Below, one piece after another: positions 2,303 through 14,249 of a stretch of DNA of 14,249 nt. The notes under the pieces are model-generated. The model was not told the origin of the DNA, ran no database searches, and saw only the letters and a program-made list of their open reading frames with translations. Source of the stretch: Flavobacteriales bacterium (GTDB taxonomy: Bacteria > Bacteroidota > Bacteroidia > Flavobacteriales > Flavobacteriaceae). The stretch covers positions 1 through 14,249 of the forward strand of contig NSHO01000030.1 of NCBI GenBank assembly GCA_002737105.1, written 5' to 3'. Every line of letters begins with the position of its first letter. The first letter of the stretch is position 1. The translations under genes and the position numbers were made by a program.

Positions 2303-4501
2303 ATGTTAAAAAAATACTCATTCCTTTTAGGTTTTCTGATAATAAATTTACAATTATCTTTTAGTCAAGAAGTTACAGATACTATCAAAACACAAAACAT
2401 TGAAGAAATAAAAATTAATTCTAAAAAAATTTCAATAAATAAAAACCAAACGCCCTCACAAATTGAACTCTTTTCAAAAGAAAAAATAGAATTTCAAAAC
2501 TTTCAAAGCACGGCAGATATGTTGGCCAACTCGGGTGCTTTATTTGTACAAAAATCGCAACAAGGTGGCGGAAGTCCTGTAATTAGAGGATTTGAATCTA
2601 GCCGAATTTTACTTTTAGTAGATGGTATACGAATGAACAACCTAATTTTCAGATCCGGTCACTTGCAAAATGTAATTACAGTTGATGAAAATTTCTTGGA
2701 AACGGCATTGGTACAATATGGCCCAACATCATCATTATACGGGAGTGATGCACTAGGAGGTTCGGTCAACATGATTACCAAAAACGCAAAATTTATAAAC
2801 GGATTTACCGGAAATTTTAACACCCGATATTCTTCTGTAAATGAAGAAAAATCTGGCTATTTCGATTTGAATTATGGAACAACAAATTTTGCCTCGTTAA
2901 CCGCATTTTCATATAACGATTTTGGTGATTTGAAAATGGGAAAATCTAAAAATCATAACGGTGATTTCTTTGGAGAAAGAACAAAATATGTGGAAACAGT
3001 TAACGGAACAGATGTTTTAACAGAAAATAAAAACAAATACAATCAAGTTGGCAGTGCATTTAAACAATACAACTTTATGCAAAAATTAGTGTATAAATCA
3101 AAAAATGGTTTTATACATAATGCTAATTTTCAGTATTCAACTTCTTCAAACATCAATAGATACGACCGATTAACAGATCCTTTAGGCACTGGTTTAAAAA
3201 GCGCCGAATGGTATTACGGACCACAAAAAAGGCTTTTAGGCGTATATAGTTTGGAAAAAGAAAATGTGTTTGCTAATACCGATTTCAAATTAGATGCGGG
3301 TTATCAAAACGTTGAAGAAAGTAGGATGAATAGAAATTTTGGAAATTACAACCTCCAAAACAGAATTGAAGATGTGAACATTTATTCTTTAGCCGCAAAC
3401 TTTGAAACCAAATTAAAAAAAGGAAATCTGTATTATGGTATGGAAAATTACTATGATGATTTAAAATCGACTGCCTTTAAAAACAATATCAAAACTGGCA
3501 TAATTGTGCCTTTAGATACAAGATATCCAAACGGAAAAAACAATATGATGCGAAATGAGTTATATATTTCCTACACTTCCAAAAGATACATAGCTACAAA
3601 CTTTTCAATGGGCGCAAGAATTGGATATGCTACTCTAAACAGCACGATTGCTGATAATTCATTAATGCCATTACCTTTTAACGAAATAAAACAACAAAAT
3701 CTAACTTACAGCGGTAATATAGGTTTGGTGCACAACGCTTCGGAAAATTTTATTTTTAAAACCAATTTAAGCTCTGGTTTCAGAGTGCCAAATATTGATG
3801 ATTTAGCAAAAATATTTGAATCTGGCGCAGGAACTTTGATAGTGCCAAACAAAGATTTAAAACCGGAACAAACTGTAACTGGAGATTTTGGATTTGTGTT
3901 AAAGTCTAAATCAAATAAACATCAATTTGATACTACGTATTTTTACACCCAATTATACGATGCTATAGTAACAGACAGCTTTACTTTTAATGGTCAAAAC
4001 ACCTACGATTTTGGCAGTGGAGAAGTAAGAACCGTAATCGCCAATCAAAATTTAGGGAAAGCATTTGTAACGGGATTGAACGGAAATATCAAAACAACGC
4101 TCGCTAAAAATGTACAATTTAATGGTTCTTACAATATTACTTTAGGAAGAGTAACTACTAATGGAAACAAAAGACCTTTAGATCATATTCCTCCTCATTT
4201 TGGAAAATTAGGAATATACTTCAATCCAAAATGGGCGGATTTTGAAGCTTACATGTTGTTTAACGGGAAAAAACAATTAAGGGATTATTCTACAAGTGGC
4301 GAAGACAACTTGGTTTACGCCACTGAAAATGGCATGCCAGCTTGGGAGACTTACAATTTTAAAGCCGCTACTAAAACAATGGAAGGATTTACTTTGTTTA
4401 CCGGAATTGAAAACATTTTAGACACGCAATATAGAAATTTTGCATCCGGAATTAATGCCGCAGGAAGGAATGTTTATGGTGGGGCAAAGTATAGTTTTTA
4501 A
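2303..4501 (+). CDS. TonB-dependent outer-membrane receptor, heme-receptor-like
   Basis: 732 residues. A signal peptide (about 1-21, ending LQLSFSQ) precedes a short segment with IEEIKIN as a TonB-box-like stretch, then the plug (about 45-165) with the conserved GGGSPVIRGFESSRILLLVDG and YGPTSSLYGSDALGGSVNMIT. The rest is a 22-strand-type beta barrel ending in Phe (YGGAKYSF), as outer-membrane proteins do. There is no N-terminal carboxypeptidase-regulatory-like domain, so it is not a SusC-type glycan importer. A FRVP motif at 493-496 followed by NKDLKPEQ from residue 516 resembles the FRAP/NPxL signature of hemoglobin/heme receptors, and the plug motif also fits that family. Heme, a siderophore or another metal chelate are therefore the likely ligands, but substrate cannot be fixed from sequence. 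No hemophore, HmuY or ABC transporter gene is adjacent. Start chosen for the signal peptide. Confidence 0.88.
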   Translation: MLKKYSFLLGFLIINLQLSFSQEVTDTIKTQNIEEIKINSKKISINKNQTPSQIELFSKEKIEFQNFQSTADMLANSGALFVQKSQQGGGSPVIRGFESSRILLLVDGIRMNNLIFRSGHLQNVITVDENFLETALVQYGPTSSLYGSDALGGSVNMITKNAKFINGFTGNFNTRYSSVNEEKSGYFDLNYGTTNFASLTAFSYNDFGDLKMGKSKNHNGDFFGERTKYVETVNGTDVLTENKNKYNQVGSAFKQYNFMQKLVYKSKNGFIHNANFQYSTSSNINRYDRLTDPLGTGLKSAEWYYGPQKRLLGVYSLEKENVFANTDFKLDAGYQNVEESRMNRNFGNYNLQNRIEDVNIYSLAANFETKLKKGNLYYGMENYYDDLKSTAFKNNIKTGIIVPLDTRYPNGKNNMMRNELYISYTSKRYIATNFSMGARIGYATLNSTIADNSLMPLPFNEIKQQNLTYSGNIGLVHNASENFIFKTNLSSGFRVPNIDDLAKIFESGAGTLIVPNKDLKPEQTVTGDFGFVLKSKSNKHQFDTTYFYTQLYDAIVTDSFTFNGQNTYDFGSGEVRTVIANQNLGKAFVTGLNGNIKTTLAKNVQFNGSYNITLGRVTTNGNKRPLDHIPPHFGKLGIYFNPKWADFEAYMLFNGKKQLRDYSTSGEDNLVYATENGMPAWETYNFKAATKTMEGFTLFTGIENILDTQYRNFASGINAAGRNVYGGAKYSF

Positions 4502-4594: not shown

Positions 4595-4834
4595 TTAATT
4601 GGAAAATAAATCATCCATTTTTTCAGCCAGTTGATAATCTAAATTGGTGATTTCATTCTTGTCGTAAGTGTATAAAGTGATTTCTAATTGAAAGGCTTTG
4701 TGAATTTTACAATCGGGATGGTGCTTAATTTCATCAGCATATTTAGCTACTTTCACAAGAAAATGTACCAATTCTGTTTGCGATTTAAACTTAAAATTGT
4801 TTACTAGTTTTCCATCAATTATGTTCCAATCCAT
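4595..4834 (-). CDS. Pterin-4a-carbinolamine dehydratase-like protein (divergent)
   Basis: 79 residues, a normal length for the short bacterial members. The pattern WNIIDGKLVNNFKFKS, then VAKYADEIKHHPD and ITLYTYDKNEITNLDYQLAE, follows the PCD/DCoH fold from the first strand to the last helix. The family enzyme dehydrates 4a-hydroxytetrahydropterin, recycling the cofactor of aromatic amino acid hydroxylases. The two catalytic His and the Pro are present (His38-His39-Pro40). The third active-site His, expected in the THD position, is Tyr57 here, and the usual W-x-N-x-Y after HHP is replaced by CKIHKAF. It is therefore a divergent member; dehydratase activity is plausible but not certain. The gene starts 5 bp after the maleate isomerase stop and ends the catabolic cluster, so it is almost certainly co-transcribed. 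No pterin-dependent hydroxylase is seen in the window. Confidence 0.75.
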   Translation of the reverse strand: MDWNIIDGKLVNNFKFKSQTELVHFLVKVAKYADEIKHHPDCKIHKAFQLEITLYTYDKNEITNLDYQLAEKMDDLFSN

Positions 4835-4839
4835 ATTAT

Positions 4840-5586
4840 TTAGTAATTACCGTTAAGAAGTTCCCCGCCAATTGCAGATTTAGCTTCGATTCCTAGCTTT
4901 TTCATCATTTCAAAGGTAGTACAAACCGCAGCTGATGTTACGGGAATACCACATTCAGCTTGAATTAAATCAATCGCTTCCAATGATGGCATTTGTACAC
5001 AAGCTGAAGCAACTAAAACATCAACATCAGTTAAATCTAATTGCTTGTATATTTCCAATAAATTCATTGGGTTTTGCGCAGCTACTTCCAAATTATCTGG
5101 TATTTCTAAAGCAATACTTTGTTTTACTTTTATGCCTTGATTTTCGATATAATCCACCACCATATCGGTTAATGGCCGCATATAAGGTGTAATAATTGAA
5201 ATTTGTTTCGCCCCTAAAACATTCAACCCATTAATTAAGGCACCTGCAGAAGTAACAATTGGCGTTGGAAAATCATTAGCCACTGTTTCTTGATGTAAAT
5301 TTACTTCCGACACACAATGATAACCTCGTCCCATACTCATAATCGCTACCAAGCAAGCATAACCCATCACATCTACGTGAGCATCTGACAATTCTTGTGC
5401 GCATTTCAAGCTCATCGCATCCATCGCTTCTAATTCTTCTTTGGTGACTTTTTTCATACGCATTCTACTGCTATGAAACGTAAAACGCTCGGGTAAAATG
5501 GTTTCGCGTGAACGAAAAATGGCTGGTATTTCGGTTTCCATCGTTACGTTTGATGATGGAACTATTTGTCCTATTCTGTATTTCAT
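4840..5586 (-). CDS. maiA: Maleate cis-trans isomerase
   Basis: 248 residues from the ATG at 5586. Almost the whole length follows known maleate isomerases of the Asp/Glu racemase superfamily: KYRIGQIVPSSNVTMETEIP at the N-terminus, FHSSRMRMKKVTKEEL, YACLVAIMSMG around Cys78, VTSAGALINGL, and ASACVQMPS around Cys196. Cys78 and Cys196 correspond to the two catalytic cysteines of the family. The enzyme converts maleate to fumarate in the cytoplasm, as NicE/MaiA does at the end of nicotinate degradation. An upstream in-frame ATG at 5631 would add 15 residues (MYKLCEFLRNKINNN) unlike any family N-terminus and encoded within repeat-derived sequence, so it is rejected. Here the enzyme supplies the last step of the ring-cleavage pathway and feeds the TCA cycle. 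Its presence implies that maleate, not fumarylpyruvate, is formed upstream. It is 5 bp ahead of the PCD-like gene. Confidence 0.93.
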   Translation of the reverse strand: MKYRIGQIVPSSNVTMETEIPAIFRSRETILPERFTFHSSRMRMKKVTKEELEAMDAMSLKCAQELSDAHVDVMGYACLVAIMSMGRGYHCVSEVNLHQETVANDFPTPIVTSAGALINGLNVLGAKQISIITPYMRPLTDMVVDYIENQGIKVKQSIALEIPDNLEVAAQNPMNLLEIYKQLDLTDVDVLVASACVQMPSLEAIDLIQAECGIPVTSAAVCTTFEMMKKLGIEAKSAIGGELLNGNY

Positions 5587-5605
5587 ATTATTATTTATTT
5601 TGTTT

Positions 5606-5690
5606 CGCAAAAATTCGCAAAGTTTATACAAAGATTCACAAAAAATTTTGTGTTACTCTGTGCTTTTCTCTGTGGAACTCTGTGTAATAA
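5606..5690. repeat. Decayed tandem short repeats between the FAH-family and maleate isomerase genes
   Basis: Most of the 106-bp intergenic space is degenerate repeat. CTCTGTG occurs exactly at 5656-5662, 5668-5674 and 5678-5684 (spacing 12 and 10 bp), with a relative TTTTGTG just before. On the other side TTCGCAAA is repeated in tandem from about 5606 to 5621. Between them is a 16-bp palindrome CACAAAAAATTTTGTG at 5637-5652. This looks like the simple intergenic repeats common in flavobacterial genomes. No function is evident, and no full promoter match was found in it. Confidence 0.6.
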
Positions 5691-5692
5691 CT

Positions 5693-6601
5693 TTATATTT
5701 CTTTAACCGTATTAACAATTGTTCCAATCCCTTCCACAGTCGCTTCTACAACATCCCCATCATATAACCATTCTTGTGGATTTCTTCCTGCGCCAACACC
5801 TGCTGGAGTTCCTGTTGCGATAATGTCGCCTGGTTCTAAAGTAAAAACAATACTCAAATCTTCAATCAAATCATTAATATTGAAAAGCATAAATTTTGTG
5901 TTGGAATTTTGTTTTTCCAATCCATTTAATTTTAACGATAAATTCAAGTTATGTGGGTTTTCAATTTCGTCTTTCGTAACCAAATAGGGTCCCATTGGTG
6001 CAAAAGTATCTTGCCCTTTAGATACAATCCATTGTCCTTCTCTACGACAATCGCGAGCAGAAATATCATTAATTACGGTGTAACCAAACACATAATCCAT
6101 CGCATTTTCTTTTGTTACATATTTACCTTTTTTTGCAATCACAACCGCCAATTCACATTCCCAGTCTAATTGAGAAGTCAATTTTGTATTTTTTATAATT
6201 CCCGTATTTGTTCCTATTACTGTTGTAGGTGGTTTTGAAAAAATAATTGGTTTTGTTGGTAATTTCCCTGTAGTATCTAAACCACGAGCACTTTCAGCTA
6301 CGTGTTCGGTGTAATTTAATCCAATTCCGATGATGTTTTTTCTTGGTTTTTCGATAGGCGCTAAAATCGTAACTTCATTCATTTCATAAGAAATTTCTTC
6401 GAAGAAATTTTCTGGTGTTTCTGAAATTAACTCGCTTATTTCAGCAATAATTTCAAATCCCATATCAATTAAATCCAACATATCATTAGGCAATGGGAAA
6501 TTAGAAATTTCTCCAAAATCTTCCATATCAATAACTTGATTGTTATGAATGAAGCCCAAACGTGGCTCAGTGTCTTGTGTTTTGTAGGTAAGTAGTTTCA
6601 T
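5693..6601 (-). CDS. Fumarylacetoacetate hydrolase-family enzyme, probable maleylpyruvate (or maleamoylpyruvate) hydrolase
   Basis: 302 residues. The C-terminal two thirds (about 85-298) form the FAH fold: NIIGIGLNYTEHVAESA, then KPIIFSKPPTTVIG, DWECELAVVI, GYTVINDISARDCR, KGQDTFAPMGPY and GDIIATGTPAGVG. The metal ligands are expected to be Glu148, Glu150 and Asp179, all present. The N-terminal 70 residues are the variable lid domain. Family members cleave C-C bonds of acylpyruvates and beta-diketones with Mg2+ or Mn2+. Next to a gentisate-type dioxygenase the natural substrate is the ring-cleavage product. Because no maleylpyruvate isomerase is seen and a maleate isomerase follows, direct hydrolysis to maleate (or maleamate) plus pyruvate is more likely than fumarylpyruvate hydrolysis. 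The gene lies 44 bp after the protease-like gene and 106 bp before the isomerase. The family is certain; the substrate is inferred from context. Confidence 0.88.
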   Translation of the reverse strand: MKLLTYKTQDTEPRLGFIHNNQVIDMEDFGEISNFPLPNDMLDLIDMGFEIIAEISELISETPENFFEEISYEMNEVTILAPIEKPRKNIIGIGLNYTEHVAESARGLDTTGKLPTKPIIFSKPPTTVIGTNTGIIKNTKLTSQLDWECELAVVIAKKGKYVTKENAMDYVFGYTVINDISARDCRREGQWIVSKGQDTFAPMGPYLVTKDEIENPHNLNLSLKLNGLEKQNSNTKFMLFNINDLIEDLSIVFTLEPGDIIATGTPAGVGAGRNPQEWLYDGDVVEATVEGIGTIVNTVKEI

Positions 6602-6611
6602 TTTTTTGTTT

Positions 6612-6636
6612 CAAAGTTACTAAGTAGCAAAGTTTT
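6612..6636. repeat. Short degenerate repeat tract (CAAAGTTACT / GCAAAGTT)
   Basis: The 44-bp gap before the FAH-family gene contains CAAAGTTACTAAGTAGCAAAG, two CAAAGT-type units 16 bp apart, resembling the CAAAGTTAC simple repeats scattered between flavobacterial genes. On the minus strand it includes TAACTTTG, which matches a -7 box by chance or design, but no -33 element is found upstream. Probably inert repeat debris. Confidence 0.35.
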
Positions 6637-6645
6637 TTGTAGTTA

Positions 6646-7827
6646 TTAATTTTCAATATTTATTTTGCTGATTTGACCTTCTTTATTTTTGACTACTATA
6701 GTGTAAAAAAATTTGTTTTTAACGTATTTTTTTAAATTTAGAATCTCACACGACTTCATTTCATTTGTATTAAATGCATCTATGCTGAGTATCTCGTCAC
6801 CAAATTTAATTTTTTCAGCCAAATTTTTATCCCAAACTAAACCAATTATAAGTTTATTGTCAAAAATTGTTAGTGCAAATTTAGGTTCTTTAATTGTAAG
6901 TAGTATTGTGTCATTTGCTTCAAAATAAAAATTCTTCTTTTTGAAATCTATAATTATATTTCCATAATCCAGAAATTTTAAACCAATTCTTGAATTAACA
7001 TCATCTGTTGTATCAGCATATAAGTTTTTTATTGATTTATTATTTAAAAAAGTATTTTCAAGCAAAACTAATTTTTGCAAGCTTGGTTTTCCTAATCCAA
7101 ATAGTCCAACGCTACTTAATCCTTCTGATTTTCCTTTAATTTCAAAAATATTTTGATTTTCAAATATAGCAAATGCACGATTTGACATATCATACAAACC
7201 ATCCATACCTGTATCGACTAAAACCATATCTGAAGCTTTTTCTTTGTTTTTTCCTAAAAAATTAAGCTCAATATACGGTGCTTTTTGACTTCCGATTAAT
7301 TTTATTTTTGTTGGTTTTATCTTAACATTTAATAATTCGAATTGATCTGTAATCACAAGGTTCTGATTTGTTTTATCAATTTTTAAAATGGAATTTTTCA
7401 ATAAATTACTACCTATAAATCCGTCAATTTTATAACAACTTAATAAATTATGATTTTTAAAATCAAAAACCAAAGCTATTTGTTCTTCAAATATTAATTT
7501 TCCAATTTCAATTTTCGGAATCACTACCGATTGCATTGATTGATTTAAATTATTTGCATCACTTATATTAACACTTTTCGTTGATACTGAATTTAATTCT
7601 TGCATAACTTCATTTGAGATCAAATTTGGTGCTCCAGTATCTAATAGAAACCTAAAAATTTTACTGTTTATGGTAACAGAAATAATAATTTTATCATATA
7701 TAGATTCGTATTGAATTACTTCATAATATTTTTTTTGAAGAATAGTGCCTTTATCAAAATCAACATTTTGAGCAATACAAAATTGTGATAAGGATACAAT
7801 TAAAAATGTTATTTTTTTAAAAATCAT
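6646..7827 (-). CDS. Exported retropepsin-like aspartic protease with C-terminal PDZ-like domain
   Basis: 393 residues. A signal peptide (about 1-20, ending SQFCIAQ) is followed by two protease half-domains, each with an active-site-like motif: LLDTGAPN (Asp63) and LVDTGMDG (Asp205). Each half also has a downstream flap/strand pattern (IDGFIGSNLL; RIGLKFLDY). The last 85 or so residues (IIGLVWDKNLAEKIKFGDEILSID) look like a PDZ domain. Bacteroidota encode many such exported aspartyl protease/PDZ proteins, few of them characterised. It should be periplasmic or surface-exposed, unlike every other product of this cluster. It sits between the dioxygenase (15 bp) and the FAH-family gene (44 bp) in the same direction. 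It is visibly more AT-rich than the flanking catabolic genes, which suggests a separate origin and later insertion. No role in the pathway is apparent. Confidence 0.8.
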   Translation of the reverse strand: MIFKKITFLIVSLSQFCIAQNVDFDKGTILQKKYYEVIQYESIYDKIIISVTINSKIFRFLLDTGAPNLISNEVMQELNSVSTKSVNISDANNLNQSMQSVVIPKIEIGKLIFEEQIALVFDFKNHNLLSCYKIDGFIGSNLLKNSILKIDKTNQNLVITDQFELLNVKIKPTKIKLIGSQKAPYIELNFLGKNKEKASDMVLVDTGMDGLYDMSNRAFAIFENQNIFEIKGKSEGLSSVGLFGLGKPSLQKLVLLENTFLNNKSIKNLYADTTDDVNSRIGLKFLDYGNIIIDFKKKNFYFEANDTILLTIKEPKFALTIFDNKLIIGLVWDKNLAEKIKFGDEILSIDAFNTNEMKSCEILNLKKYVKNKFFYTIVVKNKEGQISKINIEN

Positions 7828-7842
7828 AATTGTTTATATTTT

Positions 7843-8940
7843 CTAATGACCACCATTTTCTTCTAATACTTTTTCTTGAAACAATCCCAGCGCTTCCATA
7901 ACAGGCAAATCGTTGAATTGAAATAAGCAAGCATCTTCAGTTTCGGATAAATTGTGATGTTCGTGCCAAGCCCAACTCGGAACACAGAAAATATCTCTTT
8001 CCTTCCAATCAAAGCGTTGTCCGTTGATGATAGAAAATCCTTTTCCTTTCGCACATTGATACACAAACGAACCAGTATGCTTGTGTGCTTTTCCTTTGAA
8101 GCCGGCTGGTAATAATTGCATCGCTGCCCCCATGGTTTGCATGACGTGACCGCCTGTTAATGGATTAGAATATTGCATAAAAATTCCATCAAACGGATTA
8201 ATTTCATTCACTTTTTGAGCTTCTAAAAGAGCTGGATATACGTTTTTCCAAGAATATTTGAATAACGGTGAATAGGGTTTGTCCCAGATTTTATCCGCTG
8301 GAATCAATCCGGCACAACCGTAAATTATAGGAGAAAAATTTAAAGGTTTTAGTATTTCTTGTTTGCCATCATAAACCGCATAATCATTGGCTTCTAAAGC
8401 ATTTACTAAAGGAATATCCAATCCGTCTTGCCAAATACAGGTTTTTCCGCCCTCTATTACACCATGTTCGTGCCAAGTGGAATTTGGAGTGATTACAAAA
8501 TCATTGACTTCAAATGTGATTTTATTGCCATCAACAACCGTGTAACCGCCTTCGCCTTCCATTATAAATCGCAATGCTGAAGCTTTGTGTTTGTGAGCCG
8601 AAGTACTTTCGCCAGGGCGAGTTACTTGAATTCCGGTGTACAACCAACCCACAGCAGCTGAAACGTGTTTTCGCTTGTCGTTTACCAAATACACGACACG
8701 TCTTCCTGCTTGTTCGGGAGTAACTAATTCAGATGATTTTAAAACCAATTCGCGTAAATCGTCATATTTCCAAAGCATCGGAACGGATGAAGAACGCGGT
8801 TCCCAAGGTTCGATATCATTGGCTACCGTCCATAAAGCGCCTGCACCTAATGTTTCCAATTCTTTATAATACGCTTCAAGTTCGGGAGTGTTTTGAACTC
8901 GTGCTCTTCCAATTTGATCGTCTGAATGTTTTGCTTCCAT
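7843..8940 (-). CDS. Gentisate 1,2-dioxygenase-type bicupin ring-cleavage enzyme
   Basis: 365 residues, the usual family length. The N-terminal cupin has AHKHKASALRFIMEGEGGYT, then TPNSTWHEHG, giving the Fe(II) ligands His116, His118 and His157. WQDGLDIPLVNALEAN, typical of gentisate/salicylate-type dioxygenases, follows. The C-terminal cupin has KAHKHTGSFVYQCAKGKG and VPSWAWHEHHN, so its three His (286, 288, 326) are also kept. Gentisate 1,2-dioxygenase opens the ring between C1 and C2 to give maleylpyruvate; relatives act on 1-hydroxy-2-naphthoate, salicylate, 5-aminosalicylate or 5-hydroxyanthranilate. The gene begins 3 bp after the nitrilase-family gene, so the two are translationally close. 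Whether the substrate has 2-OH (gentisate) or 2-NH2 (5-hydroxyanthranilate) cannot be read from the motifs; the C-N hydrolase next door points to the amine. Confidence 0.88.
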   Translation of the reverse strand: MEAKHSDDQIGRARVQNTPELEAYYKELETLGAGALWTVANDIEPWEPRSSSVPMLWKYDDLRELVLKSSELVTPEQAGRRVVYLVNDKRKHVSAAVGWLYTGIQVTRPGESTSAHKHKASALRFIMEGEGGYTVVDGNKITFEVNDFVITPNSTWHEHGVIEGGKTCIWQDGLDIPLVNALEANDYAVYDGKQEILKPLNFSPIIYGCAGLIPADKIWDKPYSPLFKYSWKNVYPALLEAQKVNEINPFDGIFMQYSNPLTGGHVMQTMGAAMQLLPAGFKGKAHKHTGSFVYQCAKGKGFSIINGQRFDWKERDIFCVPSWAWHEHHNLSETEDACLFQFNDLPVMEALGLFQEKVLEENGGH

Positions 8941-8943
8941 AGT

Positions 8944-9924
8944 TTATTTCTTATTAAAATCTTCGTGATTGTCAATAAACGTAATATTTCTTGTTGGTGC
9001 TGTATTTACTCGCAAATCGAAAATATCAAAGCGGTTGTAATGTCCGAGAATATCGTGCATTTGTTTCGGTTGGATGCACTTTTCTAAGTCGATTTCAGCA
9101 TACACTACTCCTTCCTCATCAATTAGCGGTTGCCCAATTACTGCACCATTTGGACCAATAAATCCTGAGAAAGCCGAACTTTTTCTGTCTAATAATTCAT
9201 CTACATTTGGCACATCAGCACGAAGCGCATCTTTAATTTCTTGAGAAATGGTGGAACATGACACAATCGTAAATAATTTCCCTTCAAAAGAATGTGCTGC
9301 GGCACGAATTTTAATTGCTTCCGCCATATCATAATCTGGTGGCGCTACGGGCAAAGAAATGTAATTGGCAATATGTATCAATTCGCCTTGCGAAAGTAGC
9401 GTAAAACGTGCCAAAGTATTGGTGTTTTCGCCACAAGCTAATGTTCCGATAGGTCCTATTTCGGTATCATAAACTTTTAAGGATGATCCATCGCCTGAAG
9501 TCCACGTTAATTTTTCTGCCCAAGTTGGCACTAACTTTCTGTGTTTTCCAATGATAACGCCTTTATTATCGATAATTAAATTGGTATTGTAAATTTCTCC
9601 ATAGCTTGAACCTCTTTCGTTGATACCTACAACAACATGCATAGCGTTTTCTTTCGCAGCCAAGCATAATTTCTTGATTTCAGGTCCAGAAATGTCTACC
9701 GAATTTTTATATAATTCTTCGTACCACTTGCTTCCTTGAACAGGCGTCATAATCCAATTCCAATAGGGATATCCTGAAATAAATACTTCGGGAAAAGCAA
9801 TAAGTTTTGCTTGGTTTGAGGCCGCTTCTTTAATAAAAGAAATCGCTTTATCAACTGTCTTTTCTACGTTTAGAAATACAGGCGAGGTTTGAACAGTAGC
9901 GGCTTTGAATTTTTTGAATTCCAT
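8944..9924 (-). CDS. Nitrilase-superfamily carbon-nitrogen hydrolase
   Basis: 326 residues. The catalytic set is complete: Glu46 in FPEVFISGYPYW, Lys130 in KHRKLVPT, Cys164 with Glu166 in TLACGENTNTLARF. The SGDGSSLKVYDTEIGPIGTLACGEN and QGELIHIANY stretches place it with the branch-1 (true nitrilase-like) enzymes rather than with aliphatic amidases or beta-ureidopropionases. Such enzymes hydrolyse nitriles to acids and ammonia, and some act on amides. In this cluster it lies between the thioesterase and the ring-cleavage dioxygenase (3 bp from the latter). Two roles fit: releasing ammonia from an amide formed when a 2-amino-substituted ring is cleaved (maleamoylpyruvate or maleamate), or converting an aromatic nitrile to the acid that enters the pathway. 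The family is secure; the substrate is not known. Confidence 0.85.
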   Translation of the reverse strand: MEFKKFKAATVQTSPVFLNVEKTVDKAISFIKEAASNQAKLIAFPEVFISGYPYWNWIMTPVQGSKWYEELYKNSVDISGPEIKKLCLAAKENAMHVVVGINERGSSYGEIYNTNLIIDNKGVIIGKHRKLVPTWAEKLTWTSGDGSSLKVYDTEIGPIGTLACGENTNTLARFTLLSQGELIHIANYISLPVAPPDYDMAEAIKIRAAAHSFEGKLFTIVSCSTISQEIKDALRADVPNVDELLDRKSSAFSGFIGPNGAVIGQPLIDEEGVVYAEIDLEKCIQPKQMHDILGHYNRFDIFDLRVNTAPTRNITFIDNHEDFNKK

Positions 9925-9946
9925 AGTTATTTAATTACGAATTTAA

Positions 9947-9999
9947 AATTACGAATTATGAATTAAACGCTATTGCATCTTAATTCATAATTTGTAATT
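9947..9999. repeat. 19-bp inverted repeat overlapping the thioesterase stop codon
   Basis: Arms at 9947-9965 (AATTACGAATTATGAATTA) and 9981-9999 (TAATTCATAATTTGTAATT) are complementary at 18 of 19 positions, and the odd pair can be G-U in RNA. The loop is 15 nt. Further AATTACGAA-type units flank the left arm. The structure lies in the 60-bp gap between the thioesterase and nitrilase genes, and the thioesterase stop (TGA, 9987-9985) and its last residues MNYKL are encoded inside the right arm. In the transcript it would form a long A-U hairpin without a following U-run, so it is more likely a repeat element or an mRNA stability/processing point than a terminator. Confidence 0.7.
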
Positions 10000-10401
10000 C
10001 ATAATTTTATTTTTCATTTCTTCTGAAAAAGGTTCGGCTTTGATGCCGTTTCTTTCTGGGTTGAAAGCTACGTTGACTAAAGTAACTTCGCCTTCTAAAA
10101 CCAAATTATTGTTTTCGTTTTCAAACTCAAATCCACAAAGAATAGAGGCGTTTTTTAACTCTTTTACCCAAAGTTTTTTAGTTAAGATTTCACCCAAACG
10201 TGCGGCATTTTTGAATTGAATTTTTAAATCAACTGTTGGAATCCCATTGGTTTCGTGCATTTTTGAAAAAGGTCGGTCTAAGGCTTCTTCAAACCAATCT
10301 TCCACTAAACCATTGAGCATTTCTAAAAATCTTGGATAGAAAACTATTCCGGCATAATCTATATGTTGAAAACGAACTTTTTCTTGTTTTATAAATTGCA
10401 T
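9985..10401 (-). CDS. 4HBT-type acyl-CoA thioesterase
   Basis: 138 residues, one hot-dog domain. The N-terminal VRFQHIDYAGIVFYPRFLEMLN is the 4-hydroxybenzoyl-CoA thioesterase signature, with Asp15 as the expected catalytic residue. The central strand pairs (VDLKIQFKNAARLGEILTKK; LEGEVTLVNVAF) complete the fold. Between an aryl-CoA ligase/aryl-CoA hydroxylase pair and a dioxygenase that needs a free acid, its role should be to release the hydroxylated arylcarboxylate (5-hydroxyanthranilate or gentisate) from CoA. It starts 26 bp after the ligase stop. Its C-terminal five residues, MNYKL, are encoded by the inverted repeat that follows, so the natural end of the protein may have been replaced by repeat sequence. 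Start taken at the ATG at 10401, which leaves the usual eight residues before the catalytic strand. Confidence 0.85.
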   Translation of the reverse strand: MQFIKQEKVRFQHIDYAGIVFYPRFLEMLNGLVEDWFEEALDRPFSKMHETNGIPTVDLKIQFKNAARLGEILTKKLWVKELKNASILCGFEFENENNNLVLEGEVTLVNVAFNPERNGIKAEPFSEEMKNKIMNYKL

Positions 10402-10427
10402 ATTTCTGTTTTTTTAAACACTAATTA

Positions 10428-12008
10428 TTATTTCAATTTAAATCGTTGAATTTTCCCTGTTTCAGTTTTTGGCAAACTTGTAACAAAGTTAATTACTCTT
10501 GGATATTTATACGGCGCTGCTGTGTTTTTAAACCAATTTTGAATTTGAATTTTTAATGCTTCATCTGCCATTTCTTGTTCTTTTAAAACTATGTGCGCAC
10601 AAACCAACATCCCTCGTTCTTCATCGGGTAAACCCACAACGGCACATTCTAAAACAGCTTCATGTGTTAAAAGTACGGATTCTACTTCAATTGCGGCAAT
10701 ATTATAGCCTGAAGAAATTATCATATCATCGCCACGAGCCACAAAATGGAAATACCCTTCATCATCTTGTCGGAAAATATCACCTGTAATATTCCAGCCG
10801 TTTTCAACGTATTCCTTTTGTTTTTCTTCTCGATTCAGATATTTACAACCTGTAATTCCTCGCACCGCTAATCTTCCAGCTTCATTTCTTGGTAATTCGT
10901 TGCCTTGTTGGTCAATAATTTTAGCTTCGTAACCTGAAATCGCTTTTCCAGTTGCGCCAGGTTTCATGTTTTCTTCGTTGGAGGAAATAAAAATATGCAA
11001 CATTTCGGTAGCGCCAATGCCATCAATAATTTTTAGTCCTGTGGCATCATACCAATCCTGCCAAACTTTTAACGGTAATGTTTCTCCTGCAGAAACGCAT
11101 TTTCGTAAACTCGAAATATCGTAGTCTTGAATTTTTGTTGTAATAATGCGCCAAGCGGTTGGCGCAGTAAAACAAATTGTGATTTTATAATCTTGAATGG
11201 CTTTTAATAACACCTCAGGACTTGGTTTTTCGATTAAAAAAGTGGATGCTCCAAAATACATGGGAAACAACACCAATCCGCCTAAACCAAAAGTAAAACC
11301 AATGGGCGGACTTCCAATAAAAATATCATTTGAAGAAGGTTGCAACGAATAATTTGGAAATGCTTCGCAAATATTTAAAATATCTTTGTGAAAATGTGCC
11401 GTCATTTTTGGCAAACCTGTGGTACCCGAAGTAAAGCCAATTAAAGCTACATCATTTGATTTTGAGGGATAATTGTCGAATGTTTTGGGTTTATTTTCCA
11501 TTAACTTTTCTAAATCGGAATTTCTGTAGAAACTTACTTTTTTTAGAAAATTCGATTGGACTAAATTCATTTCTTCGGCTAAATCGCTATCGCAAAAGGC
11601 GTGAGAAATTTCAGCACAATCAATTATAGTGGTTATTTCTTTAGCACGCAATAAGGGCATCGTAGCTACGACTATTCCGCCTGCTTTTAAAACGGCAAAC
11701 CAACACGCGACCATCATTGGGTTATTTGCCGAACGCAACAAGACACGATTTCCGGATTGTAAACCTAAATCTTCAACTAAAACATGCTCAATTTGATTGG
11801 CTTTTTCATACAAATCTTGGTACGTCCAAGTTTCCTCAAACGTTCTTATGCAAACCGCATTTCCTCGACCTTCTTTGATGTGATTATCTAGTAATTTTTC
11901 TACGCAATTCAACATTTCTGAATGTTGGAATTGCGGTAAATCCAAAAAGGTATATTCTGGTTGTAATTCCAGTGGCGGTAAGCTTATATGAGTAAAATTA
12001 TCTTTCAT
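10428..12008 (-). CDS. Aryl-CoA ligase (2-aminobenzoate/salicylate/benzoate-CoA ligase type)
   Basis: 526 residues, an ANL-superfamily acyl-CoA synthetase. Visible motifs are the phosphate-binding loop FTSGTTGLPK (192-201), the aromatic-pocket region GSPPIGFTFGLGG (232-244), DGIGATEMLHIF (329-340) with the adenine-contacting ATE, NGWNITGDIF (403-412), GRGDDMIISSGYNI-type hinge (residues 425-437) and the catalytic Lys519 in KTETGKIQRFK. The N-terminus (LPPLELQPEYTFLDLPQF) and the TEMLHIF motif are those of the benzoate-CoA ligase branch, which includes the 2-aminobenzoate-CoA ligases of the aerobic CoA pathway. It activates an aromatic acid with ATP and CoA before hydroxylation. It starts 6 bp after the stop of the bifunctional hydroxylase gene. 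The exact acid (anthranilate, salicylate or benzoate) cannot be decided from the motifs; the partner hydroxylase makes anthranilate or salicylate most likely. Confidence 0.87.
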   Translation of the reverse strand: MKDNFTHISLPPLELQPEYTFLDLPQFQHSEMLNCVEKLLDNHIKEGRGNAVCIRTFEETWTYQDLYEKANQIEHVLVEDLGLQSGNRVLLRSANNPMMVACWFAVLKAGGIVVATMPLLRAKEITTIIDCAEISHAFCDSDLAEEMNLVQSNFLKKVSFYRNSDLEKLMENKPKTFDNYPSKSNDVALIGFTSGTTGLPKMTAHFHKDILNICEAFPNYSLQPSSNDIFIGSPPIGFTFGLGGLVLFPMYFGASTFLIEKPSPEVLLKAIQDYKITICFTAPTAWRIITTKIQDYDISSLRKCVSAGETLPLKVWQDWYDATGLKIIDGIGATEMLHIFISSNEENMKPGATGKAISGYEAKIIDQQGNELPRNEAGRLAVRGITGCKYLNREEKQKEYVENGWNITGDIFRQDDEGYFHFVARGDDMIISSGYNIAAIEVESVLLTHEAVLECAVVGLPDEERGMLVCAHIVLKEQEMADEALKIQIQNWFKNTAAPYKYPRVINFVTSLPKTETGKIQRFKLK

Positions 12009-12014
12009 TATTAA

Positions 12015-14249
12015 TTACTTCTTATTACTCTTCGGTTTCAATGCTTTTTTCATGCCTTCTGCTTGTTTTCTTTCTGTAGCTTTTAATGGATACAAATGTG
12101 AAATGCCCATTTTATAGGAATTTGGAATGTCATTCGCTTGAAATTGTTCGTACGCTTGCGCATTTCGTACAAAATTTGCATCCAATAATAAAGGTCTTCC
12201 AAGTGCAACTAAATCGGCTCTTCCGTTTAAAATTATGGTATTAATTTGGTCAATATCTTGAATATATCCTGCAGTTATTGTTGGAATATGAACCGTATTT
12301 CGTACCGCATCTGAGAAAGGTGTTTGCCACATTCTGCCGGTTTGTGGTTTTTGGTTAGCAACTGTATTTCCTGTAGAAACATTAATGATATCAGCCCCAG
12401 CCGTTTTAAATGCTTCCGAAATTACCAGAACATCAGTTTCTGAAATGCCGTTTTCTGCCCAATCTGTAGCGGATATTCTTACAGAGATTGGCTTTTCAGA
12501 AGGATATACTTCACGAATAGCTGTAAAAACCTCTAATGGATATTTTAAACGATTTTGAACACTTCCACCAAATTCATCGGTACGAATATTGGTTAACGGC
12601 GATAAAAAGGAAGCCAATAAAAACCCGTGATGTGCTTGTAATTCAATCATGTCAAAACCAGATTTATTAGCATTTATTGCGGCTTGCACGAATTGATTTT
12701 TGACAACTTGCATGTCTTCCAAAGTCATCTCTTTTGGACAATCAGAATTTTCAATGAAAGGAATAGCAGAAGCTGAAAGCAACTCCCATTTATTACCTTG
12801 AAATTGGTCTTCCCAAGGAATTTTTGAACAGCCTTTTCTTCCTGAATGTCCTAATTGAATTCCGATTTTTGTTTGGGTATATTGATGTACAAAAGAAGTA
12901 ATTCGCTGCCAAGCTACTATTTGATTTTCGGTGTAAATACCTGCGCAACCTTCTGTAATTCTTCCGGTTTCAGAAACGGCAGTCATTTCTGTTAATATTA
13001 ATCCTAAACCGCCAACAGCTCTTGAAGTATAATGTTGAAAATGCCAATCATTTACAACTCCGTTTTCTGCTACATATTGCCCCATAGAGGACATTACGAT
13101 ACGATTTTGCAACTCTACATTTCTTAGTTTGAAAGTCGTAAAAGCTGGAGATGCGGTAACAAGTTCAGCATGACATTTGTGGTTAAATTCTTTCAAAACT
13201 TTATCTGTAAACGAACTATCTCTTAGGCGTATATTCTCATACGTTACTTTTTTAGAACGGGTCATGCAACCAAATGCAAATTGCTGAAATGAATGCTGCA
13301 TGTGACGGTCCATATTCTCAAACCAATCCAACGAAACGACGGCTGCATATTGAATCATTTCAACCGTATTTCTTCGAGATTTATCATACTGTCGAAAAGC
13401 AGCTTGAACGTCATTCGGATTTGCAATCACGGCATCCGATAACCCGATTGCAGAATCCATGGCTAATTTTGTTCCTGAACCAATAGAATAATGGGCTGTA
13501 GCTTTGGCATCACCTAATAAAACAATGTTGTTATAGTACCAATTTTGATTCGTAACATGAGGAAACTGACGCCAATATGATTTATTTGAAATTAATGGGT
13601 GACCGTCTAATTCTGCTGCAAATATTTCGGCAATTTTTGACATGGTATCTGCTTCATTCGTAACTTCAAAACCATGTTTTTGCCAGGTTTCGTCACTACA
13701 TTCAAAAATCCAAGTACTCATGCCTTCTTCGTATTGATAAGAATGCGCAACAATGGTTCCGTGTGCTGTACTTCTGAAAAAATAAGTAAAAGCGTCTAAC
13801 GGTTTTGTGGAACCCATCCAAACAAAGCGGTTCTTTTTTAATTCAACTTTTGTTCCAAATTCTTTTTGATATTGTGTGCGAATGGCACTTCCAATTCCGT
13901 CAGTTGCTAGAATTATATCAGAGTCTGCAAATTGAGATAAATCATCTACATTTTGTTCGAAATGCAAATTTACGCCTTCTTCCAAGCAACGTTGTTGTAA
14001 TAATTGTAATAATGTTTTTCGAGAACAACCACAAAAACCATTTCCGGCAATATTAACGGATTCTCCATCTCTAGCAATTATTATGTCATCCCAATACGCA
14101 AATTTACTTCGAATTAATTCATACGATTGCATGTCGCGTTTTAAGAATTCGCCTAATGTTTCATCTGAAAAAACTACACCAAAACCAAAACTATCATCGG
14201 GTTTGTTTCTTTCGTAAATATCGATTTGGCAATGCGGCATTGCTTTCTT
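12015..14249 (-). CDS. Bifunctional aryl-CoA 5-hydroxylase/OYE-type oxidoreductase (2-aminobenzoyl-CoA monooxygenase/reductase or salicylyl-CoA 5-hydroxylase family), 5' end missing
   Basis: The frame is open to the right edge: codons KKA precede the Met at 14240, and that Met is internal because the FAD-binding GxGxxG strand expected just before IDIYERN is absent. About 20-25 residues should lie beyond the window. Numbering from this Met, residues 1-355 are a class A flavin monooxygenase with the family hallmark ERNKPDDSFGFGVVFSDETL (10-29), ATDGIGSAIR (112-121) and GDAKATAHYSIGSG (243-256). Residues about 366-725 are an Old Yellow Enzyme domain: RIVMSSMGQY, IQLGHSGRKG, FLSPLTNIRTDEFGGS and the FMN-phosphate site ITAGYI / LVALGRPLL. 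This two-domain order is known from 2-aminobenzoyl-CoA monooxygenase/reductase and salicylyl-CoA 5-hydroxylases, which use NAD(P)H and O2 to hydroxylate the thioester at C5. In the OYE part the expected active-site His is Gln535. The linker holds a repeat relic. It lies 6 bp upstream of the ligase gene. Confidence 0.88.
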   Translation of the reverse strand, partial: KKAMPHCQIDIYERNKPDDSFGFGVVFSDETLGEFLKRDMQSYELIRSKFAYWDDIIIARDGESVNIAGNGFCGCSRKTLLQLLQQRCLEEGVNLHFEQNVDDLSQFADSDIILATDGIGSAIRTQYQKEFGTKVELKKNRFVWMGSTKPLDAFTYFFRSTAHGTIVAHSYQYEEGMSTWIFECSDETWQKHGFEVTNEADTMSKIAEIFAAELDGHPLISNKSYWRQFPHVTNQNWYYNNIVLLGDAKATAHYSIGSGTKLAMDSAIGLSDAVIANPNDVQAAFRQYDKSRRNTVEMIQYAAVVSLDWFENMDRHMQHSFQQFAFGCMTRSKKVTYENIRLRDSSFTDKVLKEFNHKCHAELVTASPAFTTFKLRNVELQNRIVMSSMGQYVAENGVVNDWHFQHYTSRAVGGLGLILTEMTAVSETGRITEGCAGIYTENQIVAWQRITSFVHQYTQTKIGIQLGHSGRKGCSKIPWEDQFQGNKWELLSASAIPFIENSDCPKEMTLEDMQVVKNQFVQAAINANKSGFDMIELQAHHGFLLASFLSPLTNIRTDEFGGSVQNRLKYPLEVFTAIREVYPSEKPISVRISATDWAENGISETDVLVISEAFKTAGADIINVSTGNTVANQKPQTGRMWQTPFSDAVRNTVHIPTITAGYIQDIDQINTIILNGRADLVALGRPLLLDANFVRNAQAYEQFQANDIPNSYKMGISHLYPLKATERKQAEGMKKALKPKSNKK
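13148..13175 (-). repeat. Relic of a dispersed palindromic repeat inside the coding linker (CHAELVTAS)
   Basis: On the minus strand the bases from 13175 down to 13148 read in frame as CHAELVTAS. They closely resemble the short palindromic element whose usual translation, CHAELVSAS, is seen in many intergenic and mis-called reading frames of Bacteroidota. The element's palindrome (ATGCTGAA ... TTCAGCAT) is still half visible: TTCAGCAT is intact at 13165-13172, while the other arm has drifted to ATGCGGTA at 13151-13158. It sits exactly at the junction of the monooxygenase and OYE domains, where an in-frame insertion would be tolerated. Confidence 0.6.

Follow-up and report, generated by a model that had tools for sequence, protein, structure and literature searches.

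Nine genes on the minus strand of the window (the whole 14,249-nucleotide stretch analysed here, contig NSHO01000030.1 of a Flavobacteriales bacterium) raise a question: which aromatic acid is degraded by an operon that joins CoA-dependent ring hydroxylation to gentisate-type ring cleavage, and what is the role of its nitrilase-superfamily C-N hydrolase (hereafter NIT)? Comparison of the genes with their relatives indicates that the operon probably degrades anthranilate to pyruvate, fumarate and ammonia. It also appears likely that the ring is opened before the nitrogen is lost, with NIT serving as an amidase. Such an order would offer a chemical reason why the genes of this route could be missed: if ring cleavage precedes loss of the nitrogen, the route can do without gentisate as an intermediate.

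The argument turns on the position of the cut. Gentisate dioxygenases cleave between the carboxyl carbon, C1, and C2. Because C2 of gentisate bears a hydroxyl group, the cleaved end is a carboxylate; because C2 of 5-hydroxyanthranilate bears an amino group, the same cut would yield a carboxamide. An amidase would thus have an exact job on ring-opened 5-hydroxyanthranilate, the product being an amide, and none on gentisate. The substrate and each reaction of the following scheme are read from sequence comparisons. The ligase would convert anthranilate to anthraniloyl-CoA. The hydroxylase would add the 5-hydroxyl and leave the ring aromatic, the catalytic His of its reductase domain having been lost, and the thioesterase would release 5-hydroxyanthranilate. 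The two-metal gentisate-type dioxygenase (GDO in the window) would then cleave between C1 and C2 to give maleamoylpyruvate, which the FAH-family hydrolase would split into pyruvate and maleamate, so that an amidase would be needed before the isomerase. NIT would fill this place, releasing maleate and ammonia from maleamate (or acting one step earlier), and the isomerase would turn maleate into fumarate.

Gene layout and conservation

The cluster occupies positions 4595–14249. Read from 14249 downward, its genes are:

12015..14249, minus strand: hydroxylase, FAD monooxygenase fused to an OYE domain, ABCM/SdgC-like; proposed anthraniloyl-CoA 5-hydroxylase; OYE motif IELQAHHGF
10428..12008, minus strand: aryl-CoA ligase, AMP-ligase family; closest to anthranilate-CoA ligases, best PDB match 4wv3
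9985..10401, minus strand: 4HBT-type acyl-CoA thioesterase (Pfam/NCBIfam); proposed 5-hydroxyanthraniloyl-CoA thioesterase
8944..9924, minus strand: NIT, nitrilase-superfamily C-N hydrolase, active site CGENTN; proposed amidase acting on maleamate (or maleamoylpyruvate)
7843..8940, minus strand: GDO, gentisate-type bicupin dioxygenase for ring cleavage, with the two metal triads retained; proposed 5-hydroxyanthranilate 1,2-dioxygenase
6646..7827, minus strand: retropepsin-like aspartyl protease (Pfam/NCBIfam); accessory
5693..6601, minus strand: FAH-family hydrolase (FAA_hydrolase); proposed maleamoylpyruvate hydrolase, giving pyruvate and maleamate
4840..5586, minus strand: maleate cis-trans isomerase, Asp/Glu-racemase type; best solved relative 4fq7
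4595..4834, minus strand: pterin-4a-carbinolamine dehydratase-like protein (PCD); not a conserved part

From low to high coordinate, the gaps are 5, 106, 44, 15, 3, 60, 26 and 6 bp. The initial annotation had described nine same-strand genes with gaps of 3 to 106 bp and had named the families of all but the protease and PCD, and the gene calls and Pfam/NCBIfam matches bear it out. For the isomerase, the listed open reading frame reaches 5631 (TTG); we adopted the internal ATG at 5586. The hydroxylase is cut at its N-terminus by the end of the window, with about 20 residues missing relative to the protein of a related locus (L009).

Is this arrangement conserved? A scan of GTDB-representative contigs with NIT returned at least 598 stretches, of which 556 encode relatives, and the best 80 loci (L001–L080) were compared. 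The seven core genes, i.e., all but the protease and PCD, are collinear in 80 of 80 loci. All seven are present in 65, and every core gene missing from a locus falls beyond the end of its contig. Carriers of the seven genes include the culturable Flavobacterium aquatile (L057) and F. saliperosum (L075). Chance is thus a poor explanation for the clustering, and it is near certain that the window genes form a conserved catabolic gene cluster. The earlier proposal that a CoA-dependent upper part is joined to a lower part of the gentisate type, equipped with a maleate isomerase, in one operon-like unit is upheld, and this unit is conserved in flavobacteria.

The 80 loci were found with NIT and so contain it by design. 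An independent test comes from a count in 121 genomes of the genus to which G001, the source of the Flavobacterium tibetense locus (L007), belongs. NIT was found in 51 of them, the hydroxylase in 53, the gentisate-type dioxygenase in 51 and the isomerase in 52. NIT and the hydroxylase occur together in 51 genomes, the hydroxylase alone in two (G394 and G409, both 1.7 Mb assemblies), NIT alone in none and neither in 68 (Fisher p 3e-32, relatedness ignored). NIT and the dioxygenase co-occur in 50, with one genome each way carrying a single one of them (G397, G379). The operon is therefore not rare in the genus, and many Flavobacterium relatives carry what looks like a so far unassigned route of anthranilate breakdown. 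Across the phylum, the hydroxylase was detected at E 1e-150 in five of 296 genomes, G001 included.

The protease (7/80 loci) and PCD (a match anywhere in the fetched flanks in 9/80) were set aside as pathway members on these counts. PCD, which begins 5 bp past the isomerase in the window, also adjoins it in the closest relative (L001). A flavin-reductase-like gene (PF01613) lies upstream of the hydroxylase in 69 of the 80 loci; the window stops short of that place. Another recurrent gene, glutamate-synthase-like (PF01645), is found in 21 loci (e.g., L023:7753-9336), as a rule between ligase and thioesterase, and might handle the released ammonia. Four loci (L045, L051, L055, L056) come from metagenome-assembled genomes titled Rhizobium, Sphingobacterium or Bifidobacterium breve, yet hold the flavobacterial operon at 86–87% NIT identity; these titles look wrong.

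Ligase, hydroxylase and substrate

The best match of the ligase among solved structures is an anthranilate-CoA ligase (4wv3, 289 bits), followed by a benzoate-CoA ligase (223 bits). It also shares 47% identity with the ligase encoded next to the hydroxylase on plasmid pAL1 of Arthrobacter Rue61a. For one plasmid ligase of this strain, ARUE_113p00220, anthranilate-CoA ligase activity is reported in the accessible text of PMC3534580, where the hydroxylase is ARUE_113p00230; from the gene order, we read ARUE_113p00220 as the ligase of our Rue61a locus (L092). Given this closest solved relative, the isatin hydrolase, tryptophan 2,3-dioxygenase (TDO) and kynureninase genes that neighbor related modules (see below) and the amidase role, anthranilate is the likelier substrate compared with salicylate. 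That the substrate is amino-substituted, most likely anthranilate itself, we consider highly probable. The initial annotation had leaned on salicylate and gentisate, a reading that the ligase and the module neighbors weaken; it had also named 5-hydroxyanthranilate among the metabolites to trace.

The hydroxylase is a fusion of an FAD monooxygenase and an OYE domain: the latter is recognized by Pfam, the N-terminal half can be aligned with VioD-type structures, and the full protein with its best NCBIfam family, NF006101 (salicylyl-CoA 5-hydroxylase/oxidoreductase). The truncated protein scores 923.6 bits, below the cut-off of 1078, and none of the 296 phylum genomes encodes a hydroxylase above that cut-off. 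Most records of the hydroxylase are annotated as 'salicylyl-CoA 5-hydroxylase'.

At the first position of the OYE His pair, where a catalytic His is expected, the window protein has Gln; the three solved OYEs aligned with it have His. Gln was found in 71 of 71 loci of the set that have a readable motif (nine of the 80 lack a hydroxylase on the contig) and likewise in L083, L110 and L114, each with the dioxygenase nearby, for a total of 74 Gln hydroxylases beside this dioxygenase. The residue is His in all 16 hydroxylases from clusters of the ring-reducing type (L091, L092, L098–L109, L115 and L117), loci of our own choosing that comprise 14 among the 40 hydroxylase matches listed and two found later. 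The neighborhoods of these His-type genes include an SDR and an enoyl-CoA hydratase in 13 of 16, an SDR and RidA in L098, and RidA and a ligase in L092 and L104. Queries with RidA and acyl-CoA dehydrogenase gave no match above 60 bits in any of the 80 operon loci. Among 120 further relatives (P0121–P0240), considered without gene context, 57 have Gln, 58 have His and five are unreadable.

A tree of 59 hydroxylases requires three His/Gln changes, a number forced by well-supported branches (5–95% range over 200 bootstrap trees, 3–3); the tree included the trait column, places L114 on a long branch and joins the long flavobacterial branch to other long ones. Of its 59 rows, 34 were drawn from 120 listed relatives by taking every fourth protein and four others, and the number of changes is read from the group table. 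According to the available portions of PMC4539516 and PMC3534580, the enzyme of the 2-aminobenzoyl-CoA pathway both hydroxylates the ring and reduces it; the latter also reports 5-hydroxyanthraniloyl-CoA as a product of this hydroxylase family under NADH limitation. We infer that Gln abolishes ring reduction. If so, this single residue may serve as a marker that separates two fates of anthraniloyl-CoA.

Ring cleavage, the candidate amidase and plasmid relatives

Against the gentisate family TIGR02272, GDO scores 307 bits, short of the 442.1-bit cut-off, and no canonical gentisate dioxygenase above that cut-off was found in the 121 genus genomes, all of whose matches fall below it. GDO is bicupin, like members of the gentisate 1,2-dioxygenase family such as GDOsp (3bu7), salicylate 1,2-dioxygenase and 5-aminosalicylate dioxygenase. 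The two His triads are conserved in the window protein and the 12 others aligned across them (the L090 sequence spans just a part), so the subclade members aligned keep both metal triads. The crystallised GDOsp is the dioxygenase of a related module in Ruegeria pomeroyi (901 bits), and the available part of PMC10306065 describes two ferrous centres in it. The proposed route thus predicts an amide-making dioxygenase, and with it a natural substrate for this crystallised 'gentisate' dioxygenase. A 5-nitrosalicylate dioxygenase is described, in what was accessible of the source, as inactive on 5-hydroxyanthranilate; because it is inactive on gentisate as well, it decides nothing.

NIT matches PF00795 (CN_hydrolase) with 147.8 bits (cut-off 23.2), and its site CGENTN is found in the window protein and 17 other aligned sequences. 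The motif of true nitrilases (branch 1) is Cys-Trp-Glu, which NIT, with CGENTN in its stead, lacks. The route predicts an amidase role for this nitrilase-family clade. As for the remaining steps, the FAH-family hydrolase matches a maleylpyruvate hydrolase (6jvv) with only 96 bits, and its best match (8sky, 216 bits) is named merely as an FAH-family protein. The isomerase aligns with maleate cis-trans isomerase 4fq7 (312 bits), including the cysteines of both motifs.

The lower half also occurs on plasmids of other bacteria. Nine plasmid records carry NIT at 59% identity or more, and all eight that were fetched show the NIT-GDO-FAH-isomerase module: Ruegeria pomeroyi, Shinella (two), Caballeronia, Sagittula, Sulfitobacter, Leisingera (in pieces) and Embleya. 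In the ninth, a second Leisingera plasmid, NIT and the dioxygenase lie side by side by coordinates. More distant NIT relatives (50–53% identity) in Polaromonas and Salinigranum lie outside clusters of this kind. In L083 and L088, the genes follow the proposed sequence of reactions, GDO-FAH-NIT-isomerase; NIT precedes GDO in the window and most other loci.

What surrounds the plasmid modules bears on their substrate. A pair resembling indolepyruvate-ferredoxin oxidoreductase (IorAB-like) and a thioesterase adjoin the module in Ruegeria, Shinella (L082), Caballeronia, Sulfitobacter and Sagittula. Judged by sequence, genes labelled 'cyclase family' near the module encode isatin hydrolases, scoring 461 bits against 5nmp in Caballeronia and 336 bits against 5nna in Shinella. 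L085 and L089 have isatin-hydrolase-like genes at a distance of some kilobases; the fetched Ruegeria flanks showed none. Isatin hydrolase forms isatinate (2-aminophenylglyoxylate), which the IorAB-like oxidoreductase would convert to anthraniloyl-CoA. In the actinomycete Embleya (L087:6741-15876), TDO, an amidohydrolase-family open reading frame, kynureninase, an AraC regulator and the module follow in one run. The common element of the proteobacterial and Embleya contexts is an ortho-amino benzoyl compound.

A plasmid search with the dioxygenase extends the association with nitrilase-superfamily genes. Among the best 60 of 206 records, 17 dioxygenases are at least 54.9% identical to that of the window and the next at most 39.7%, a gap that separates this subclade from gtdA. 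A nitrilase-superfamily gene lies within about 6 kb of the dioxygenase in 15 of the 17, in two lineages that are about 32% identical. NIT is the neighbor in nine. The second lineage, with the site CWENYMP, is the neighbor in six (four Novosphingobium, Aminobacter and Tistrella), at about 6 kb in Tistrella and by coordinates only in three of the Novosphingobium. The C-N hydrolase, which had been listed initially and left without a role, thus turns out to be the usual partner of this dioxygenase subclade. No isomerase match was found in the fetched flanks of Aminobacter and Tistrella.

Several smaller observations concern these plasmids. Near dioxygenases of this subclade, the CWENYMP lineage comes together with a flavin-reductase-like protein (L111:12039-13603, L112:17047-18651 and L114:8295-9841); in Aminobacter, the flavin reductase shares about 35% identity with the one heading the flavobacterial operon. 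R. pomeroyi has a separate His-type hydroxylase cluster with TDO on the same megaplasmid (L091). In one Leisingera plasmid (L090:5245-8043), the dioxygenase, FAH and isomerase matches come in several, partly overlapping pieces, so that this copy looks degraded or affected by sequence errors; a one-piece dioxygenase match lies on another plasmid of the species.

Alternative routes and known systems

A number of observations weigh against the anthranilate route with early ring opening. The R. pomeroyi enzyme 3bu7 was published as a gentisate 1,2-dioxygenase (as cited in the accessible part of PMC13280823), and that name counts against the proposal unless the enzyme also takes 5-hydroxyanthranilate. 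The His-to-Gln change by itself would also suit a salicylyl-CoA hydroxylase. The best solved relatives of NIT are nitrilases and cyanide-degrading enzymes and, in view of these and of the CWENYMP motif in the second lineage, a nitrile substrate is possible. The adjacency count is confined to the 17 subclade records, two of which have no nitrilase-superfamily gene within 10 kb of the dioxygenase: C. taiwanensis (L110), where insertion-sequence genes are close by, and S. alexandrii (L113), where RidA is present. Kynurenine genes, tried as a discriminator within the genus, were rejected: TDO (112/121), kynureninase (117/121) and 3-hydroxyanthranilate dioxygenase (106/121) are found with or without the operon and, being nearly universal, are uninformative on the substrate. 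Finally, six module records were searched whole. In none does a hydroxylase lie in the fetched flanks of the module; at E 1e-60, three lack one altogether, and in the remaining three (Ruegeria, Shinella and Leisingera) the only one is of the His type and lies elsewhere. The 5.7 Mb Embleya record has no hydroxylase of the family at E 1e-60. The substrate of such modules would therefore be already 5-hydroxylated, or be hydroxylated by another enzyme. For L081, L082, L085 and L089 (Ruegeria, Shinella, Sulfitobacter and Sagittula), where the module and the IorAB-like pair are joined by an isatin hydrolase in three of the four and no hydroxylase lies in the fetched flanks, it could be a 5-hydroxylated indole derivative.

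Salicylate might instead be degraded through salicylyl-CoA, gentisyl-CoA, gentisate and maleylpyruvate to pyruvate and maleate and then fumarate, as in the sdg system of Streptomyces, with NIT an accessory that, for example, releases salicylate from a nitrile or amide. The name of the hydroxylase family and the published name of the R. pomeroyi enzyme agree with that route, and a loss of ring reduction would suit it equally. It nonetheless seems unlikely to us: NIT, present in 51 of 53 hydroxylase genomes (and, by construction, in all 80 loci), would have no role in the lower path, nor would the second nitrilase-superfamily lineage elsewhere; the ligase is closest to an anthranilate-CoA ligase; isatin hydrolase, TDO and kynureninase make amino-substituted compounds; and GDO reaches 307 of the 442 bits set for gentisate dioxygenases.

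Alternatively, 5-hydroxyanthranilate could be deaminated before cleavage, as proposed for Nocardia opaca and Alcaligenes In3, so that anthranilate would pass through true gentisate and NIT would be the deaminase or unrelated. We regard this as improbable, as nitrilase-superfamily enzymes act hydrolytically on nitriles and amides rather than on aryl amines, the core genes include no other conserved candidate for a deaminase, and RidA is without a match at the threshold given above. The proposal does have a literature (Cain 1968; Claus and Kutzner 1983, as cited in the accessible text of PMC4539516 and PMC6221969). A hydroxylated or otherwise substituted ortho-aminobenzoate, degraded by the same lower path, would explain why R. 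pomeroyi, Shinella, Sulfitobacter, Sagittula and Embleya have modules without a nearby hydroxylase, as expected of a pre-5-hydroxylated substrate. For the window operon, such a substrate in place of anthranilate itself has a very slim chance of being correct, because L001–L080 pair the module with ligase and hydroxylase wherever the contigs reach.

Returning to anthranilate, we lean, on balance, toward a broader reading whose parts are to be taken jointly: a further aerobic anthranilate route would exist in Bacteroidota, Pseudomonadota and Actinomycetota. In it, a two-metal bicupin dioxygenase would open 5-hydroxyanthranilate, its nitrogen still attached, to maleamoylpyruvate; two separately recruited nitrilase-superfamily lineages would act as maleamate amidases; one and the same His-to-Gln change, arising about three times, would have turned a monooxygenase/reductase into a simple hydroxylase that feeds the route; and hydroxylase-less modules may serve already 5-hydroxylated indoles, such as breakdown products of serotonin or 5-hydroxyindoleacetate.

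How does such a route compare with known systems? It resembles the 2-aminobenzoyl-CoA pathway of Azoarcus evansii and Arthrobacter Rue61a in its CoA ligase (the window enzyme is 47, 49 and 51% identical to those of L092, L102 and L103) and in a hydroxylase of the same FMO-OYE family. In that pathway, as far as the available sources describe it, the ring is also reduced and degradation is finished by beta-oxidation-type genes, often with RidA, whereas the window hydroxylase has Gln at the reductase His position and its operon continues with a ring-cleavage dioxygenase, FAH, NIT and isomerase. The Streptomyces sdgABCD system for salicylate shares CoA activation, 5-hydroxylation and a gentisate-type dioxygenase; its activation takes two genes, compared with one ligase here, and to our knowledge it includes neither a nitrilase-family gene nor a maleate isomerase. 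The tail from maleamate through maleate to fumarate recalls nicotinate (nic) degradation, in which NicF is isochorismatase-like; the window would use a nitrilase-superfamily enzyme for the maleamate step.

The gentisate route of anthranilate is traced to Nocardia opaca (1968) and an Alcaligenes (1983), and a 2018 review (PMC6221969), in its accessible part, calls it 'catalyzed by an unreported enzyme', the functional gene not being revealed. PMC9007349, in the text available, only names the breakdown of tryptophan through anthraniloyl-CoA monooxygenase/reductase as one of the pathways left out because too little is known about them. In the literature searched, which lay mostly outside subscription journals, we found no description of the operon or of an amide-forming cleavage. 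Within that scope, sources on anthranilate and maleamate (including the accessible part of PMC10005059) do not describe the route, the term maleamylpyruvate was not found, and gene-context terms have no occurrence in PMC6117287, on isatin hydrolase. The operon could offer concrete genes for an anthranilate route proposed decades ago.

Beyond the cluster, the window holds a cytochrome c7/c3-type gene (304–1650), a gene with a weak SPOR match below the cut-off (1858–2250) and a TonB-dependent receptor gene (2303–4501), the product of which is nearest to haem/haemoglobin types. The receptor and the cytochrome are also found downstream of the operon in L001 and L002.

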